Positions 16,942 through 39,690 of a stretch of DNA of 64,000 nucleotides are shown one piece after another. Every line of letters starts with the position of its first letter. Position 1 is the first letter of the stretch. Position numbers and translations under genes: made by a program. Source of the stretch: Fistulifera solaris (lineage: Eukaryota > Bacillariophyta > Bacillariophyceae > Naviculales > Stauroneidaceae); assembly GCA_030295235.1 (NCBI GenBank), contig AP026162.1, forward strand, positions 2,046,001-2,110,000, in the 5' to 3' direction. Under the pieces are notes generated by a model. It made no database searches. It was not told the origin of the DNA and was given only the letters and a program-made list of their open reading frames with translations.

Positions 16942-18202
16942 TATTGAGTTCTTTGTTGTCGAATGGCGTATGTTGGTGGGTCAATGAATGGTAAGACTTT
17001 GAGAGGAGTTCGAGTGACATTTTGAAACGGAACATGGTTTGCAAAATCTCCGCGTCCTTCGGATTTCCATCGTGAGAAGTTCTGGTTTTCGTAATAGGAG
17101 TTTGGGTGCCGATCGACTACAGTAGTACTGTTGCTGACGCCTGTGATGACGGCGGAAAAGTGAGTCGATCGATACTCCCGACTCCTGACTCCTGAGGCGA
17201 CATTGTTGGTACCAGTACGACATCAGACATCATCTGTCAATCCTTCGTGGATCTATAAGTATCGGTCCGTTCGACCACAAGAGGAACTAAGTAGATGAAA
17301 CATTAAACCAAATTAACTCCAAGAGAACTACGGTGCCAAGAGGGCTTTCGTCGCGGATAGAAGAACTTAAAATCCCCTGCAAAGAAGAAAACGAAATGAC
17401 TCATGACTCAATCCAGTCATGACAAAAGGTCGCCTTCACTTTAAGGCTATAGTAAAAATCAAAGTGTGAAATAATGATCTCGAAGGCTTCTTCACGCAAC
17501 AAATGCAATAATGCATCTCAAAGAATGCGGATCGCTAATACAATGCTTTCAACAGCTTTACATTTTTATTTTTGTTCGAGCCATGTGTTGTCAATGCAAT
17601 CCTTATCGGTGTTTGGAAGTCGAGCTCACACTTGAGCCTATAGTAGAAAATGGAAAAATCATTCTGAGAATAAGCTTTCCCACGCTTAAAAAAATTGTGA
17701 TAAAGCATTTCAACTGAAATTATCAGCTTAACCTTTATCTTCTATTGTACATGTTTGCATTCATTCATAGAGCTAGATCCTATGTGTTAGCCATTTTTGG
17801 TGTCCATCGTTTACCTCATCTTGACTCAAATCGAGTCGTGTCATGGTGCCGTAAACCAACACTTTAATCTATACTACATTGGGAAGTACACTTTCGTGCG
17901 ATAGAAATAATTTTCCACATTGGCAATAAAGCACGTTTGGGACTTGTGACAAAAGATCGCGATCGAGAGGTGCGTTATTTTGCCAATTAATGGCTTTGAT
18001 GTCGATGAAAACACATCTTCTCGTATTTTTGCAATCACTCATTAAAGAATTACAGTCTCAAAGTCTTTCATCCTTTGTGTTGGATCTTGATGGAATAGCG
18101 CGGTAGCTGCTGTGATTCGAATGAGCGTTTCGAAGTCATGAATCAACAAAAAAATCAAGATTGCAAAAGTAAGGCAACGAAGAGACAGCGAATATCCCGA
18201 AA
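16942..18202. other. Long intergenic region, no gene supported
   Basis: About 1.26 kb lie upstream of the MFS gene. Repeated fragments of the type CACTTgaGCCTATAGTA occur near 17438-17450 and 17624-17644, echoing 13686-13705. CAGTCATGA-type fragments near 17412 recall the diverged repeats at 19.5-20.6 kb. No coding signature is seen. Confidence 0.4.
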
Positions 18203-18980
18203 ATGGATTCATTAAAGCTTTTCGTCGTTAATACAGAGCAACGGAGCTGTCTTCGTTTTGCTGTAGCCATGGCTTGTTCTCCGTGTATTTACACACGGCC
18301 TTCTAAAATTACCACTTCCCGCGCGGCGACAGAACAACAATCCACCCAACTGGAACAAGCGGCGAGAGCCTTTCTGCAAAAGTCGGGTATTTTAACGGAG
18401 GTGAAGACTTGATTCAAAAATGGCACAAACTGTTGTCCACATGGGATACCGGACGGCTGGAATTGGCCGTCGAACGCAAGCAGGACTTGTACCAATCGTT
18501 ACAAGACGATCCACGCATCGATAGCGCATCGCTTCTTGTTTCTTACAACGTACAATCGTTCTCATTCGAGTGGATCCCAAGCCTTGGCGATTTGGAAGCG
18601 TGGAATCTAGTTTGGATTGGTGATACGGAACTATCTCCGGAGATAGAACGGATATTATGGAAGGATCACAAGTGGCCATGGAGGCCTTGTAACGACTCCT
18701 CCTCGATCAGTGGGGATTTACCATGCAACCCAATCTGATATCGCATTCGTTGCCTGTTTGCTGCATCTCGAATGTATTTTTTCACGTCGACAATAGTCAG
18801 GATATACGATCGTTGCATCAAGCGTTTCAAATTATGAAATATGTGAAGAAATTACTCGGCATGTTTTGGAAACGAGACGAACGATGTTGCTTGGTACCTG
18901 GTAATGGTACTCTATACGTTTTTTCCGGGGATGCAAATCAGTTCAATCTTGACAATCCTACGGTTTACGCTATAATATAA
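18203..18980 (+). CDS. Unrecognised coding stretch, frame interrupted
   Basis: An ATG at 18203 opens about 66 codons with a cysteine-rich start and then a helical segment (TEQQSTQLEQAARAFLQKSG). From about 18390 the next frame continues convincingly to about 18640 as acidic helical protein (DLIQKWHKLLSTWDTGRLEL, then DPRIDSASLL), and a third frame may continue to 18980. At least two frame changes and possible stops are needed. It could be one gene with indel errors, as elsewhere in the window, or a decaying gene. I recognise no family, and both exon structure and 3' end are uncertain. Confidence 0.3.
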
Positions 18981-19489
18981 GGTGATGTGATTCTCGGAAG
19001 CGATGGTACTTTTAACGCCTGTAGCAAAACCATCAACTTAGTTCAGAGCAACTTGATTATTTAGGAGCAACTTATAGGTTTTGACATCAATAGACTTAGG
19101 GCATAAAGCAAACCCAGTTAGGCGAAAAGAATCATCGCCATCGTCAAGGAAAGGTTTCTAATTACAAGCCAACGGATACATAGATTGTTTTGTACTTAAG
19201 CTAGAATGGTTTTCAACGAAGCGATACTGCCCGTTAGAAAATGAAGATAAATTATACTATCATCGTAATTTGTCATGATAAAAGCGAAGAATCGTCCTAC
19301 ACAAAAGAGTACAAAGGAACACGTTTTGATGGACTTCTCTATCTGGAATAAAGTAGTGGGAGATGACCCGCCAAGAGTCATTTAAACTCTTTTTCCTATA
19401 CAAAATCGAAATTTTGTCGATTCGATCTTTGAAATCCTTCCCCCACACCCCCATGCCAAAACGAAAAGATCACTTTTCGGACTAAGGTT

Positions 19490-20570
19490 TACAAAAACAC
19501 TTTCGTTATTACTCTACAAAGCTATCGACTATAAGCAAAAGTGTTGTCCGTTGTTGCCATGATTGGGCTTCAGTCATGAGTCCCGGGTCGTTATTTTAGG
19601 ATATGATTGTAGTCTCGACCTAAGTCAGTTTGGGTTTGATTGCCTCAATACTATAGCAACTTTCCCTAGATTACTCTTCTGTATCAATCAACATTGTTCA
19701 AAATCCATGTAACCTCAAAACGAAGAAAAGAAGAGAGATGCAACATGCAACGCTTCGAATGTCTACGTAAATTTCTCGTAGCTCTCGTAGGGAAATTTAT
19801 CGACAGAGTGGGTACCCGGATATTGAAAATGATTTCTTGCAACTTATTACGGCTATATTCTGCACCAACTTCACCATTCCTCTCACCGACGCGGATCCAT
19901 CGGATCCATAAGCGATACAAGAACGTACGTTGGCTGAAAGATGCTACGCTTCCAATGTCTATTAGGGAATTTATCGAAGTAGGTTTCGCCCTTAGCGTTC
20001 GTACCTGGTACTCCAGTGGTACGTCACCAATACGTTCGTTTCGCACTGTTTTCAGTGATGCTACATTATTTGTCATTAGCTCGATAAAAATACCTTTCGA
20101 AGCAGTTGCGGTGCCCACCACGATGCTAGACGTCGAAAAACATTGCGGATCGTCGAGTTTTGTATTTACTATAGGCCCAAGTGTAGGCAACCTTTTCCAC
20201 GACTGCAATTCAGTCACGATGCCAGATTCTTCTGGGAGACACGGGAACGCACCTCTGCTTGGTACATTTATCTACGGGGGCCTACGTGAGTGTACACTTT
20301 TTCCCGAACCTTCCTGTGGGCCAAATTGCAGCCGCACCTTCGTTTCGCACTCCTATCAAGGAGGTTACATTTGTCATTTTCATGATAAAAAGACGTTTCG
20401 AAGCATTTGCAGTACATGCAACGGTGCTAGATTTCCTAAAGACTATATGTTTCATTTCTGAGATTTCGACCAACGCTTCGGATCGTCGATTTCCTGCGTT
20501 TACTATACCGGTGCGATAGGCCCAAAATGTTGTCGTATTTCGCCACGACTGCAGTTCAGTCACGAAACCC
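19490..20570. repeat. Block of diverged tandem repeats
   Basis: Several segments recur with substitutions and small gaps. The stretch at about 20025-20225 (CGTTCGTTTCGCACT..., TTTGTCATT..., CGaaGCA..., CACGACTGCAATTCAGTCACGA) recurs at about 20335-20567, and its final part again at about 19500-19585. A shorter pair lies at 19751-19812 and 19947-19990 (CGCTTC.AATGTCTA..., GGGAAaTTTATCGA). The copies look old. Open frames across them share related peptides but have no protein signature. Confidence 0.6.
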
Positions 20571-20650
20571 AAGCCGCAAAATAACGCAAAAGAAATCTGC
20601 GACCATGATGATTCCTGGTATACGGAGCGTCTTTACTTTATTGTTTTGCA

Positions 20651-33697: not shown

Positions 33698-36600
33698 CTA
33701 TCGGCGTCTCGACCCTTGCGTAGCAGACATTTTTTCGTTCTTGTTCGTGCACGAAAGTGTCACCATGTCGAACCGATCGTCAACTTTGCTGTAAAGGAGA
33801 ATGGTGATGAGCGCGGAGCTTTCAAAGTTGGACTGGTCGGACCCAGGACCATGGCCCCACAGTCCGTGGCGTCGCATGAAATTGTCAATGGCTAGACCAA
33901 GAGTTTTTAAAGATCGCTTGTGCTTGGCGCCGTGACGCTCTAACATTTCATTGCAAGCACCTACCGCAGATTGTTCTTTTCGTTCCCGTCGCATCAGCGC
34001 AGTCCCAAAGTCACGAAGTACCCAAAACGATACGTCAGCAAGAGCAAAGACAGGGATAGTGGGCACCCCCATGGACGCAAGTCTTGATGGGTCCTGCATG
34101 CCCTTAATGAATGACTCCGCAGACAGCGCAATGGTTTTCATTGACTTTAAGCATGTCTTTGGGGTTTCAGTTTTCGAAATTTCTCTGTCAACACCGTAAT
34201 ATGTATCATTTTCGATGTAGATACATTTTACGGAGGCTGTTTGACTCGGACGATTTCGTGGCTCGCGAGTTTTATACGGAGTAAGATTCACGGCCGTATC
34301 TTCTTGGCTATCACTATTCATGACTGCAGCAAGGATACTTGGTGCCAATTCGGCGAGAGCCACCAATCGTTCATTTATGTTGTTTGATTGACCAGAGTCT
34401 ATCGTTACTTGTCGGAGCCTTACCGAACCCTTGTCACGAAGAAGATGAGGTTGAACGATGACTATAAAAGGTATCTTCAGTAAAGCGCATACTCCATGTA
34501 ACTCCATTAATGACCAATCACTTTCGCCGCTTTCTTCAGAGTTGTTGCCAGCCCGTCGAACGAGACTAAGCATAACAGAGCTTTGAGAAAGATATTCTGC
34601 AGAAACGCCTTCAGCCCAAAGCCTGGCTGCTACGATGGCTCGCTCGCGCTGGCCGCCTGAATCTGTAAATGAACTCAATAATGAGTTGTCCATAGCAAGC
34701 AATTCGTTGAAAATGCATGGCAATCAAACATACCTAATCCATGCACACTTGCTACGATGCAATGAACAGATTTCGAAAAATTGAGCGGGTGACCAAGACT
34801 CCGTCTGAGTAAATCGATATTTTGACTGTCTGTATCAATGTTCCTACTTTCATTCCCAGATTGATTTCCATCTTGTCTCCCAAGCATCGTTGCATCAATG
34901 TAAATAAGTTCAACAAACTTACCCACGAAAAATCGAACACCAACACAAACAGGGATGGGAGCAGATGTATAGTGAGATACAGTAGCGGAAGCAAAGTTTC
35001 CTGGGGGCCGGAAGCGCCTCACTAAATCTGAGTAGTAACCCCCTTCAGCCACTCGAGTGCCAAGATTATCATGGTGCTCTTCGGGATCGCATGGAGATGA
35101 AAAGTAATTTTCGGGTAAAATTATCGCTTGGAATATCGACCCACCGTGATAGTACTTTCTCCGCTGCCTCAATCCCAAGTCGAAAGCAATGAAAAGTGGA
35201 CGGCGCATTAATGGTTGACCGCCTTCAGTCTTTTTACCAAATAAAAGTGGACCAATGTGCATTTTCTCCAGCGACTCCACTAAATTTTTAACGCTCTTCA
35301 AACTTTTGGCCGCGTCTTCGAAGCGTTTCAATCGTTTCGGGTCAGCAACCTTCGGTTCAAGCTTTCGTAGTTCAGACAGACCATGTTTGAGCATCTCAAT
35401 GCTAGTGTTGATATCAAGATGCAAAGGGACGCACTTAGATACAAACATAAGAAATCTGTCGGCGCTAGTTTTCGGCATCCCTTGTCGCCTGATAAGCTCT
35501 TCAAGCGTAGAGGAGATTCGCTCGATTCGGTGTTTCCTTTCGTCCTGCTTTTCGGTGTGGGTGAGCAACAAAAGCCTCGGAGTGGGAGATGTAAATTTCG
35601 TAAGAATGTGCAAACAGGATCTCCGAATGGTATCTTTCAAGGGAATCTGACACAAATCCAGAATGCAGTCCGCAAGCCTTGTGTGGTTAAGGCGAATATA
35701 CCATGGTATTGGAGCTTCCACTTCCTTGTCAATTTGTATCTTGGAGTTGCGGTAAGACGGAAGAAGAGCAATTGCTTGAGCAATTACCATAATGACCTCT
35801 GACTCCAAGAGATCGCTTTCGATGTTTTCGTGGATAATGTCAAAAGAAGCTTCAAGCGACTCTCGAGGATGACCACCAGCAATCGATTTATGATAAACGC
35901 GGTCAATATCATAGCGTTTTAGATTACTAGTTGCCGAACCACCACGACTCACGGCACGAGCTATAAACACCAGCATCAGGTCCAGAATACCACGAAATAT
36001 GAAAACACACAGTCGACGTACCAAAAGAAACTGTCAGGTCTTCCGGCAAAGATAGAACGGCACCTCTGCTATTTAATACCTCAGCTGGACCTCCAGTTGC
36101 ATTGCTTCCGGAAGAATGATTTGGTCGGGGGCGAAGCAACGGATTTTGGAGACGCGAGGCTCCGTGCATATGAAATACGGCTTTCAGCTTTTCGCATACA
36201 GTTTCAACAACAAACGGGTCGGATCCTAAAACGCCGTCTATAGTCCCAGCAATCGCAGCTGAAGTAGCGGCACGCATCGAGAAAATCCCAGCTGTCCGTT
36301 GAGTCGAACGTTTCATGCCACTGTTATGCCAAGCCAAATATTGAGCAACCGAAGAATGAGCAACGAAATCTGTCGGTGATTTTGAACTTACATCCCTTTT
36401 CCGAATCCGCCCACCTTACCAGCTTGTCTTGAGCGTTTTAACTTACGGAACATGAGTAGATGGACACTTGATGTAATCGTACACAAAATTATTTCTTACC
36501 GAGTATGTGGCCGCCAAGAAGGAGCACGGATTCATGGCAAGCGTGCGGAGCGATGCAATATCAACCGCACCCATCCGAACATCGCTGATGGCCCGCATTA

Positions 36601-39600
36601 GATCTTCTGTAAGGTCAGTACGCGTATTCGCTTGGACTGCAACATCTGTGTCAAACGTCTTTACATATGTCAGCACACCAAATGATGGTAAAGGAATAGC
36701 AACAAAGCATACTTACGGCATCGACGACATCGGCTTGATGCCTAGCGAAGAGAGCATCAATTATCTGCAGATAACTCTCCGACTTGAGTGATGAAACAGG
36801 CTATTAGCTGAAGTCTTGAGTAAATCATCTTATTCGGTTCGATCGTACTTACTTGCGAAGTCGTCAGCAGCTCCAGTGCCTCTTCGAGATATTTTCGTTC
36901 AAGTTCAATTTTTCTAGGAAGTAACTCGCTTGAAAGTAAATCTTCAGCTGAGGTAGAGTCTGGATAAGACAGATTACTCAAATCAAATGCTATCCACAGA
37001 GTTTGAACGTACCACTTGGCCTATTTTTCGGTTCTCTCTCCAAACACCAAAGGATGATTCTGAAAGAGTTTCATTAGATTGTCCAAAAACATGCTAACAA
37101 GCCGGAACCCGTGACTTACCTCTGACACTGCTCAGTAGTTGAGGAAAGGAAAAGCGGGGGAAACGATCCGCTGCTAGTGCCCGAAAATCCGTAGAGGGCA
37201 TTGTCCGTGGGCTTCCGTTTGAGAGTCGAGAAGCATGGTCACCCCGTAGCTTCGTAAGAGTCTCGGCCCGTTCCATATAAGTCTGAAAAGGCGGATGGAA
37301 CATCTCAAACAATATGATGCCAAAGCTAAATATATCCGCTTGGACAGTGTACGATGCCTCCCCCTTACCGCTCGACAAAACGCGCTCCTGTTCAGCTAAA
37401 AGAGAGATGAGGAAGATGTGAGTTGATGCTAATTAATCATATACTTTGTTAAAATGATATTTGTACTCACGCTGCGCGGCGATCAGTTAGATCATTATAT
37501 CGAAGTGATGCAAGTGGCAATGAGAAAAGACACAACATACTTACTGCACGATAAAATGTTGTCCCCACCCCTCTTGAATTACCAAGAAGTCGACATAAAT
37601 ATTAGCAAACAAAGAGCAGAAAAGCAGCTTACGAGTGACTGTCTTACCCCGTCATTGATTCCTCAACCGAAAAAGCAGATGTTCCTCCAGATGGTATCAT
37701 GGGGTCCCCAATAAGTCTTGATATGTCCTCAGTATCATCATAGATATTGTCGCCATCAATTTGTTTTGACTCATCTCTACCGCCCTTATCGCGATGTTTC
37801 GTGGCAAGACCAAAATCACCCAAACGTATATTTTGCTCGTGATCAAGAAACACGTTTCCTGGCTTTAAGTCACGATGAATGATGTTTTGTCCGTGGATGT
37901 AAATAAGTGCCTCGAGCATTTGTCGCGCAAGTCTCCATACGCCGTTCTCTTCCATGCTAAGAACATCGCCATCATCGATCAACTTCCTCAATGTAGTTGA
38001 GCAGTACTCCATCTGAATGTAAAGAATTGTTTGGCCATCACCAGCACCGACTTTAACCGACGACTGATCCCACCCTTCACTATCAGAATCGCTCCAATTC
38101 TTCTTTTTGCTCGTTTGATTGAGTAATGTGTCATATGCATTATTTTGAAAACCGAGTCCACTTAGAAGCGGACTGTTAATTCCATGATTGATTTCGTTCT
38201 CCAATAAATTTACCATGGAGTCAGAATGTTTGTCAAGTGCGCTTTTCTCCAGACTTGGATTTCTCTTTTTGGAATCGACACTGTTGTCACTCTCTAAGCC
38301 ATCACTATCGTTTGATCTATTTGCTAAATGTCCCAACAAGTGATTCTCTACGGGAGAATTTGTCCACCAGCCGCTAGATGATCCGTTGCTGCTGTCGTCA
38401 CCGCTCTCCTCCTCCGCGGATTTCACAGGCTCGCTCACAGTCTCTTCGGGAATTGTTTTGCTCCCTTCCATCCAAGCCTGATAGTACCGCACGATGTGTT
38501 TGTGTGTCATTCGACTAATGGTCGTCACTTCGCGGCGTAGCTTTCGATTTTGCAAGGCAGCATGATTCGCAAAACGACCACTTTCTGATTCCAAAATAAT
38601 TTTTTTGATGGCATATATTCTTCGATCGAGTCTATTGCGAACTTTCACAACCTCCCCGCCGCCCCCCTCGACCAAGAACACCAAGTTCAACAAAATCAGA
38701 TTGGTATCTCGATGCCGAAGGTGCGACGTAACCGTCATCATCGTCAAAATCAAGTTCATCCACAACGTCATACGCAACGACTTCGTCCTCATTTGACGAT
38801 AGCGACATTGCCCGTTGCCCTCTCCGTTGCTTCAATGCCGCATCCAGTGCCTCTTTTTGTCGTAAGAGCTCTTTTTCTACGTCAGACGACACCAGCGGCT
38901 TGGCAAACGACACTTTGCTGGTTCTAGAGTTGCTAGGCGAAAAAGTCTCCAGTGCAGGACGAGCAGTTTCATTCATCAAACGATTTATTTCTTCACGCTC
39001 CTTCTCCTCTTTTTCTTTTCCATAGCCTCTCTAGCTTTCATCTGTTCCCAAGCCGACATTGTTGGATCACGATTGTGCAAAACTAAGAAATCTTCAGCTA
39101 CCTGGACCAGTTCAATCATCATGACGGACCCCGTTTCTGCTAATTCGGTAGCTCGAGCCTGGAGCTGGGACATGAGCTCCGCTTGTTCTTCCTTTGATAA
39201 CCCTTTCACGTTTCGACATTCAATGGCTGGGGCGACGTAAGGGTATTGCTTGCCCAGCTGAATCGAAAGGCTAAAAAGAAAGTCGACGCAATCATTGAGC
39301 CGCATAGAACATATGCGTCAAGATATAGAAAACAGACCAGTTTACGTACCATATCTTGCATCCAATTTGCGCAGCTGGAACATCGGGCGGACTGACGTCG
39401 ACCTCCAGCCGTTTACATCCCCAAACTCCTTCGACGCATCGGAATTCTTCCCCGTAAACCGCCTCGAGCACAGTAATTTCATCTGCTCGAGAGACCGACA
39501 AATCTTCATACGACGGGATATGTAAATTGGTTTTATTCGTCGGACGCACTGTAGATGATATCCCAGAAACAGAGACGGTCGTCGAAGCAGCCGTCTGCGA

Positions 39601-39690
39601 CGTGGACTTTGGTAGATGCTCGTCGGTCGAATGATTCGAAGAGTCATCATCACTGTCGCTATCTTGCAGAACCGCAAAGAAACCGGACAT
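33698..39690 (-). CDS. GCN2: eIF2-alpha kinase GCN2
   Basis: Twelve exons are inferred: 39690-39350, 39270-37648, 37572-37545, 37471 (1 nt), 37395-37120, 37059-37013, 36947-36853, 36782-36717, 36658-36447, about 36386 (or 36395)-36022, 35960-34734 and 34662-33698. Domains in order are an RWD domain ([17 protein letters not shown]), a charged coiled linker, a protein kinase ([49 protein letters not shown]; large acidic insert between lobes) and a histidyl-tRNA synthetase-like domain ([27 protein letters not shown]). The last part is a weakly conserved C-terminal region. Three one-base breaks occur: an A-run near 39017, the G6 run near 38657 and the C5 run near 37160. Corrected, the exons sum to 1,749 codons, close to yeast and human GCN2. 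It phosphorylates eIF2-alpha when uncharged tRNA accumulates. Confidence 0.93.
37471..37471 (-). other. Candidate single-nucleotide exon of GCN2
   Basis: A lone C (G on the plus strand) lies between an acceptor CGCGCAG and a donor GTGAGT. The introns on either side are 37472-37544 (73 nt, GTAAGT, with a CTAAC branch site) and 37396-37470 (75 nt, ending TCTCTTTTAG). Joining exon ...CGTGCA, this C and CTGAACAG... gives R-A-P-E-Q, the kinase APE motif, in frame; skipping it loses the frame. Confidence 0.6.

Follow-up and report, generated by a model that had tools for sequence, protein, structure and literature searches.

Fistulifera solaris is an oil-rich diatom, and GCN2 is a stress-sensing kinase. 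We analysed a stretch of 64,000 nucleotides from the F. solaris genome (51.7 Mb, 61 contigs), referred to here as the window (G000:C1:2046001-2110000); positions are those of the window unless a contig is given. On its minus strand lies a gene that, judging by its translation, encodes a GCN2-type eIF2-alpha kinase (Table 1). The top PDB match of the kinase domain was GCN2 8t7t (E 8.5e-34), and of the best 10 entries, all with E of 9.4e-28 or lower, eight bear the name GCN2 and the other two only a general kinase name. On either side of the kinase are what we take to be, from likeness of the translations by eye, an RWD region (upstream) and a HisRS-like region (downstream). A search of the genome with its own kinase segment recovered the two GCN2 loci plus two weak matches elsewhere (48% identity, partial).

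We placed 12 introns by hand in the window's copy of the gene (copy 1) and then transferred them via alignment to a second copy on contig 2 (copy 2). Manual placement was chosen because the automatic picks made by homeolog comparison (16, then 71) were judged by eye to be mostly false. With the last exon run to the stop, the exons sum to 5,189 nt, which would correspond, counting the stop, to 1,730 codons once three presumed single-base frame corrections are made: one base short near 39018 in copy 1 and present in copy 2, one surplus G in the G6 run near 38665, and one base short in the T/C run at 37163-37156. The 12 exons and 1,749 codons counted in an earlier note on this DNA are incorrect, as we place 13 exons; the discrepancy would be explained by a 58-nt intron at 36499-36442 (minus strand; 57 nt in the homeolog) that was apparently read as coding. 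Apart from the two introns that meet at position 37471, the ten introns of the gene measure 53, 58, 58, 60, 61, 70, 71, 71, 75, and 79 nt in copy 1; their range in copy 2 is 53-76 nt. Seven introns elsewhere in the window, judged clear by eye in the homeolog comparison, are 67-104 nt long in copy 1.

Table 1. Features of the GCN2-type gene and of the region around the candidate one-nucleotide exon (window positions).
Feature	Position	Strand	Remarks
Predicted GCN2-type eIF2-alpha kinase gene	33698..39690	-	13 exons including the candidate one-nucleotide exon; hand-placed introns; stop at 33698
Intron before the 28-nt exon, 75 nt (homeolog 76)	37573..37647	-	
28-nt microexon	37545..37572	-	with preceding bases encodes G-V-G-T-T-F-Y-R-A; directly upstream of the candidate one-nucleotide exon
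Proposed upstream intron, 73 nt (homeolog 67)	37472..37544	-	GTAAGT...CTAAC-15 nt-CGCGCAG
Candidate one-nucleotide exon (C)	37471..37471	-	would be the first base of the proline codon in the kinase A-P-E motif
Proposed downstream intron, 75 nt in both homeologs	37396..37470	-	GTGAGT...CTCTTTTAG
Next exon, 276 nt	37120..37395	-	starts CT GAA CAG; kinase C-lobe

In the kinase domain, the 28-nt exon ends in frame at Y-R-A and is followed by a GTAAGT donor at 37544, while the exon at 37395, preceded by TTTTAG, begins CTGAACAG and resumes as CT GAA CAG, one base short of A-P-E. The minus strand here reads ...TTTTATCGTGCA, GTAAGT, CTAAC, CGCGCAG, C, GTGAGT, CTCTTTTAG, and then CTGAACAG. The gap of 149 nt (37544-37396) divides into 73 + 1 + 75 about a single C, with 15 nt from the second A of CTAAC to that base. 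When the C is included, the join aligns without gaps to LTGMVGTALYVSPEV of GCN2 8t7t; without an extra base, translation runs out of the kinase domain, and the Pfam Pkinase score drops from 112.6 to 74.8 bits. The earlier note had described the 28-nt exon, the missing base, the C bounded by CGCGCAG and GTGAGT, and the CTAAC motif, all of which we found again on the minus strand, and it had called the two introns typical in size, which agrees with the 53-79 nt of the other ten in copy 1. It had further claimed that the added C yields R-A-P-E; this holds, and in the path list described below no other path does so with the same canonical sites in both homeologs. A single intron of 149 nt (143 nt in copy 2) would be an outlier, because the other ten span 53-79 nt and 53-76 nt in the respective copies.

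Fistulifera has been called allopolyploid (PMC12159174). A DNA search located another copy of the region, 87-88% identical, on contig 2, and most of the window is collinear with G000:C2:1917710-1979169 (17 blocks, 80-92% identity, some gaps); we treat the two copies as putative homeologs, as expected for an allopolyploid. The stretch at about 17130-20620 of the window is without a counterpart among the collinear blocks listed. At the start of the 276-nt exon the homeolog reads TTTTAGCTGAGCAA, with the same base absent, and across the exon start it reads TTTTAGCTGA, without the base, as in copy 1. It has the C too, at G000:C2:1952620, within CATAG, C, GTGAGT, and it keeps CTAAC at the same distance, YAG-C-GTGAGT, and TTTTAG. 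Its gap is 143 nt (67 + 1 + 75), shortened from 149 nt by a 2-nt and a 4-nt indel that both fall within the first intron. Mismatches between the homeologs number 7 of 35 and 13 of 37 aligned sites in the mid-parts of the two introns and 4 of 25 in the branch motif and middle acceptor stretch; there are none in the 22 nt from AG-C onward and none in the last 19 nt. The unchanged 22-nt block over the C is not improbable by itself (P = 0.14 by permutation), and we do not use it as support. Between the homeologs the 28-nt exon differs at 1 of 28 nt, and, in the reading frame restored by the C, the 276-nt exon appears to evolve under purifying selection (dN 0.03, dS 0.33). Conservation of the one-nucleotide exon between related genes is seen in these two homeologs; searches of viral_contigs and genome_contigs confirmed no relatives of the protein of the 276-nt exon. 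Sequence, frame, size fit, and presence in two homeologs are thus direct observations, and the shared absence of the base, together with the shared C, donor, branch motif, and final acceptor, lends support to the reading first offered in the earlier note. We conclude that the C at 37471 is very probably a real one-nucleotide exon between the 28-nt and 276-nt exons.

The chief rival is a lost shared base, a rank it takes because two homopolymer errors in this gene are apparently common to both homeologs. Here, one ordinary intron of 149 nt (143 nt in the homeolog) would run from GTAAGT to TTTTAG, one C would have been lost in the assembly of both copies, the true joint would be TTTTAG, CCTGAA, and the genome would in truth read TTTTAGCCTGAA (TTTTAGCCTGA at 37395 and at the homeologous site). 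Weights trained on the splice sites of this gene's 10 other introns (20 sequences, a small set with no GTG donor) favor this account in that both outer sites lie inside the training range (donor 9.2, acceptor 5.3). By the same weights both middle sites fall below the training range, a point against the one-nucleotide exon: the acceptor scored –5.8 (copy 1) and –0.9 (copy 2), against 4.4-9.5 in training, and the donor, GTGAGT, scored 1.0, against 7.0-13.2. The downstream intron is without CTRAY in either copy, as are about half of the other introns. Against a lost base, a CC pair would have to be shortened independently in each of the two copies, whereas the frame breaks seen in the gene adjoin homopolymers; the resulting intron would have almost double the length of the longest among the other ten; and the presence of AG-C-GTGAGT with CTAAC in mid-intron, in both copies, would be a coincidence (5e-5 to about 1e-3 per gap). 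The earlier note had named a base lost at the exon start as its alternative; we find it much less likely than the one-nucleotide exon, since it needs the same loss in both copies, but the shared G and T/C breaks leave it some weight, and overall we consider it unlikely.

The coincidence was estimated by shuffling each gap 20,000 times with its dinucleotides preserved. YAG-C-GTRAGT with workable halves arose in 1 of 20,000 (5e-5), an arrangement with a looser donor in 0.0014 and 0.0011 of the shuffles of the two gaps, and bare AG-C-GT in 0.031 and 0.024. By itself, the short motif YAGCGTRAGT is unremarkable across the entire window, with one match where 0.30 were expected and at least one in 25 of 100 shuffles. 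The full pattern (CTAAC, AG-C-GTRAGT, and YAGC at set distances) has two matches in the 51.7 Mb, both at the GCN2 loci, and its reversed control has six in the same genome.

The quality of the assembly bears on whether two copies could lose the same base. The assembly name of a sister species contains ONT (PMC12159174), and we infer that the present assembly also rests on nanopore reads. The frame breaks seen in this gene are located in or next to homopolymers of at least 4, one of them being a 2-nt gap beside TTTT, and two are common to both homeologs: the G6 run near 38665 and the T/C run at 37163-37156 (runs of 3 to 6). These two suggest that homeologs may share assembly errors. The first, on the minus strand in the glycine-rich loop of the kinase, is a +1 frame break in both homeologs and is probably a shared homopolymer overcall. 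The second, on the minus strand inside the 276-nt exon, seems to lack a base in both; in the frame as shifted after this run, two later homeolog differences turn synonymous and, on our reading, the next exon is joined in phase. Correcting the T/C run hardly moves the 8t7t score (121.0 versus 120.3); the match stops before that stretch, so the score does not bear on the correction. Farther upstream on the minus strand, near 39018 and 38858, each homeolog is one base short in or beside an A run, at different places; these losses, lying upstream of the G run, return each homeolog to frame after the shared extra G, which may or may not be coincidence. One more break, of 2 nt, is present in copy 2 near 38148. 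A stricter scan of the window for frame-breaking indels returned three cases, one of them in this gene, with adjoining runs of 5, 3, and 4; the scan overlooks several breaks known in GCN2, and three cases are too few for an error rate.

To compare the one-nucleotide exon with other joints, we listed frame-keeping paths with GT or GC donors, AG acceptors, a middle exon of at most 60 nt, and introns of at least 40 nt. Two-intron paths numbered 42 open in copy 1, of which eight are open with canonical sites in copy 2 as well as in copy 1; a single one of the eight reads R-A-P-E. A single intron gave R-A-P-E neither among the copy 1 paths listed nor among the best eight of each copy. Single introns with a different canonical end can keep the frame at the cost of the motif: an AACAG acceptor would give a 157-nt intron and R-A-E-R-V, a product without P-E-Q, and a GTATGT donor four bases downstream would give a 145-nt intron and R-A-V-T-E-Q. 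By the gene's own weights these have the top two donor and acceptor sums in copy 1 (12.1 and 11.5, respectively), and profile scoring does not penalize the R-A-E-R-V product. Neither site is conserved, however: AACAG is AGCAA in copy 2, GTATGT is GTAGTC there (–1.4 with TTTTAG), and in copy 2 the single introns that score best while keeping the frame yield other proteins. Each product also breaks the spacing G-T-x-x-Y-x-[AS]-P-E of the 8t7t alignment, and we regard a shifted canonical end as very improbable.

A non-canonical TA-AG intron (GCAG, TAAGT...TTTTAG) would regain the frame in both copies with no extra exon and give R-A-A-E. Yeast GCN2 is likewise without P at the A-P-E site, where it has A-T-E, which speaks for such a product. 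The intron would nevertheless require a TA donor beside a perfect GTAAGT, and its product scores lower than that of the one-nucleotide exon with both Pfam (107.8 versus 112.6) and 8t7t (117.0 versus 120.3); we give it hardly any credence. The full comparison, contrary to expectation, did not clearly separate the rival proteins by Pfam or PDB score. With Pfam Pkinase, R-A-E-R-V (112.5) nearly equaled the one-nucleotide exon and F-Y-P-E-Q scored 105.6; with GCN2 8t7t, the one-nucleotide exon (120.3) stood beside R-A-E-R-V (120.5) and F-Y-P-E-Q (118.4); and with GCN2 1zyc, the one-nucleotide exon was the lowest of the four (106.5, against 111.2 for R-A-E-R-V, 106.7 for R-A-A-E, and 107.4 for F-Y-P-E-Q). 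We interpret the lack of a penalty on the shorter products as arising because they remove extra residues that the diatom protein has just after A-P-E.

If the C is an exon, it would be a constitutive one supplying the first base of the proline codon (GCA, C, CT GAA), and the expected spliced joints would be CGTGCA + C + CTGAACAG in copy 1 and CGTGCA + C + CTGAGCAA in copy 2. The 73- and 75-nt introns would each be recognized by intron definition. They would presumably be removed one after the other, because an acceptor and the next donor that are one base apart could not be bound by two spliceosomes simultaneously. Removal of the first intron first would create a new donor, GCAC, GTGAGT, and removal of the second intron first would create a new acceptor, CGCGCAG, CCTGAA. 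Inclusion of the C in the mRNA, its constitutive status, and stepwise splicing are all predictions from the genome sequence. A more elaborate version, in which the exon is real and obligatorily two-step (recursive) and also acts as a switch, such that skipping would yield a frame-shifted, kinase-dead GCN2 transcript and splicing efficiency would set the starvation response, strikes us as distinctly doubtful.

A true diatom case would extend one-nucleotide exons to another major eukaryotic lineage, again within a conserved protein motif, and would come with natural duplicate copies for comparison. The exon appears to complete an essential part of the enzyme and would be overlooked by ordinary gene-finding, which illustrates a route by which such genes get a frame-shifted annotation. 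In the literature that we searched, with most subscription journals outside its scope, we found no diatom one-nucleotide exon and no relevant diatom microexon paper. Placozoan mitochondrial cox1 is not a spliceosomal system. It too is described as having a one-base exon, but a mitochondrial one (PMC5436844). The nuclear cases found in the sources consulted were APC11 and VPS55 of land plants and CYP621A of one fungal P450 family (PMC4674806, PMC8831610, PMC12940212), and the diatom GCN2 exon most likely adds to this known, very rare kind.

The CYP621A exon of Fusarium, a single G in a fungal P450, is reported with RNA reads in two species; the apparent intron is 139 nt, more than twice the median, and the candidate aligns in all sequences of Figure 2 according to the text of that paper (PMC12940212). 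As described there, it resembles the diatom case in that a base is missing at a joint in a conserved motif (PKG there, A-P-E here) and the gap splits around AG-N-GT, whereas the GCN2 exon is a C in a diatom kinase, predicted from genome sequence. APC11 of Arabidopsis and other land plants is reported to have a constitutive one-base exon needed for the frame (PMC4674806, PMC8831610), and its authors favor intron definition with stepwise removal (PMC4674806). The likeness lies in the frame-essential single base and in the stepwise removal, argued for APC11 and proposed here; the accounts of APC11 differ in the gene, in the base, which is A, in the 422-nt gap, and in a test in protoplasts. An exon of one base readily escapes read mapping, as the example of soybean APC11 shows (PMC8831610). 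VPS55 of land plants shares with GCN2 a conserved GTRAGT donor right after the one-base exon but is a different gene, is supported by RT-PCR, and is described as alternatively spliced for presence or absence of the exon in some species (PMC8831610).
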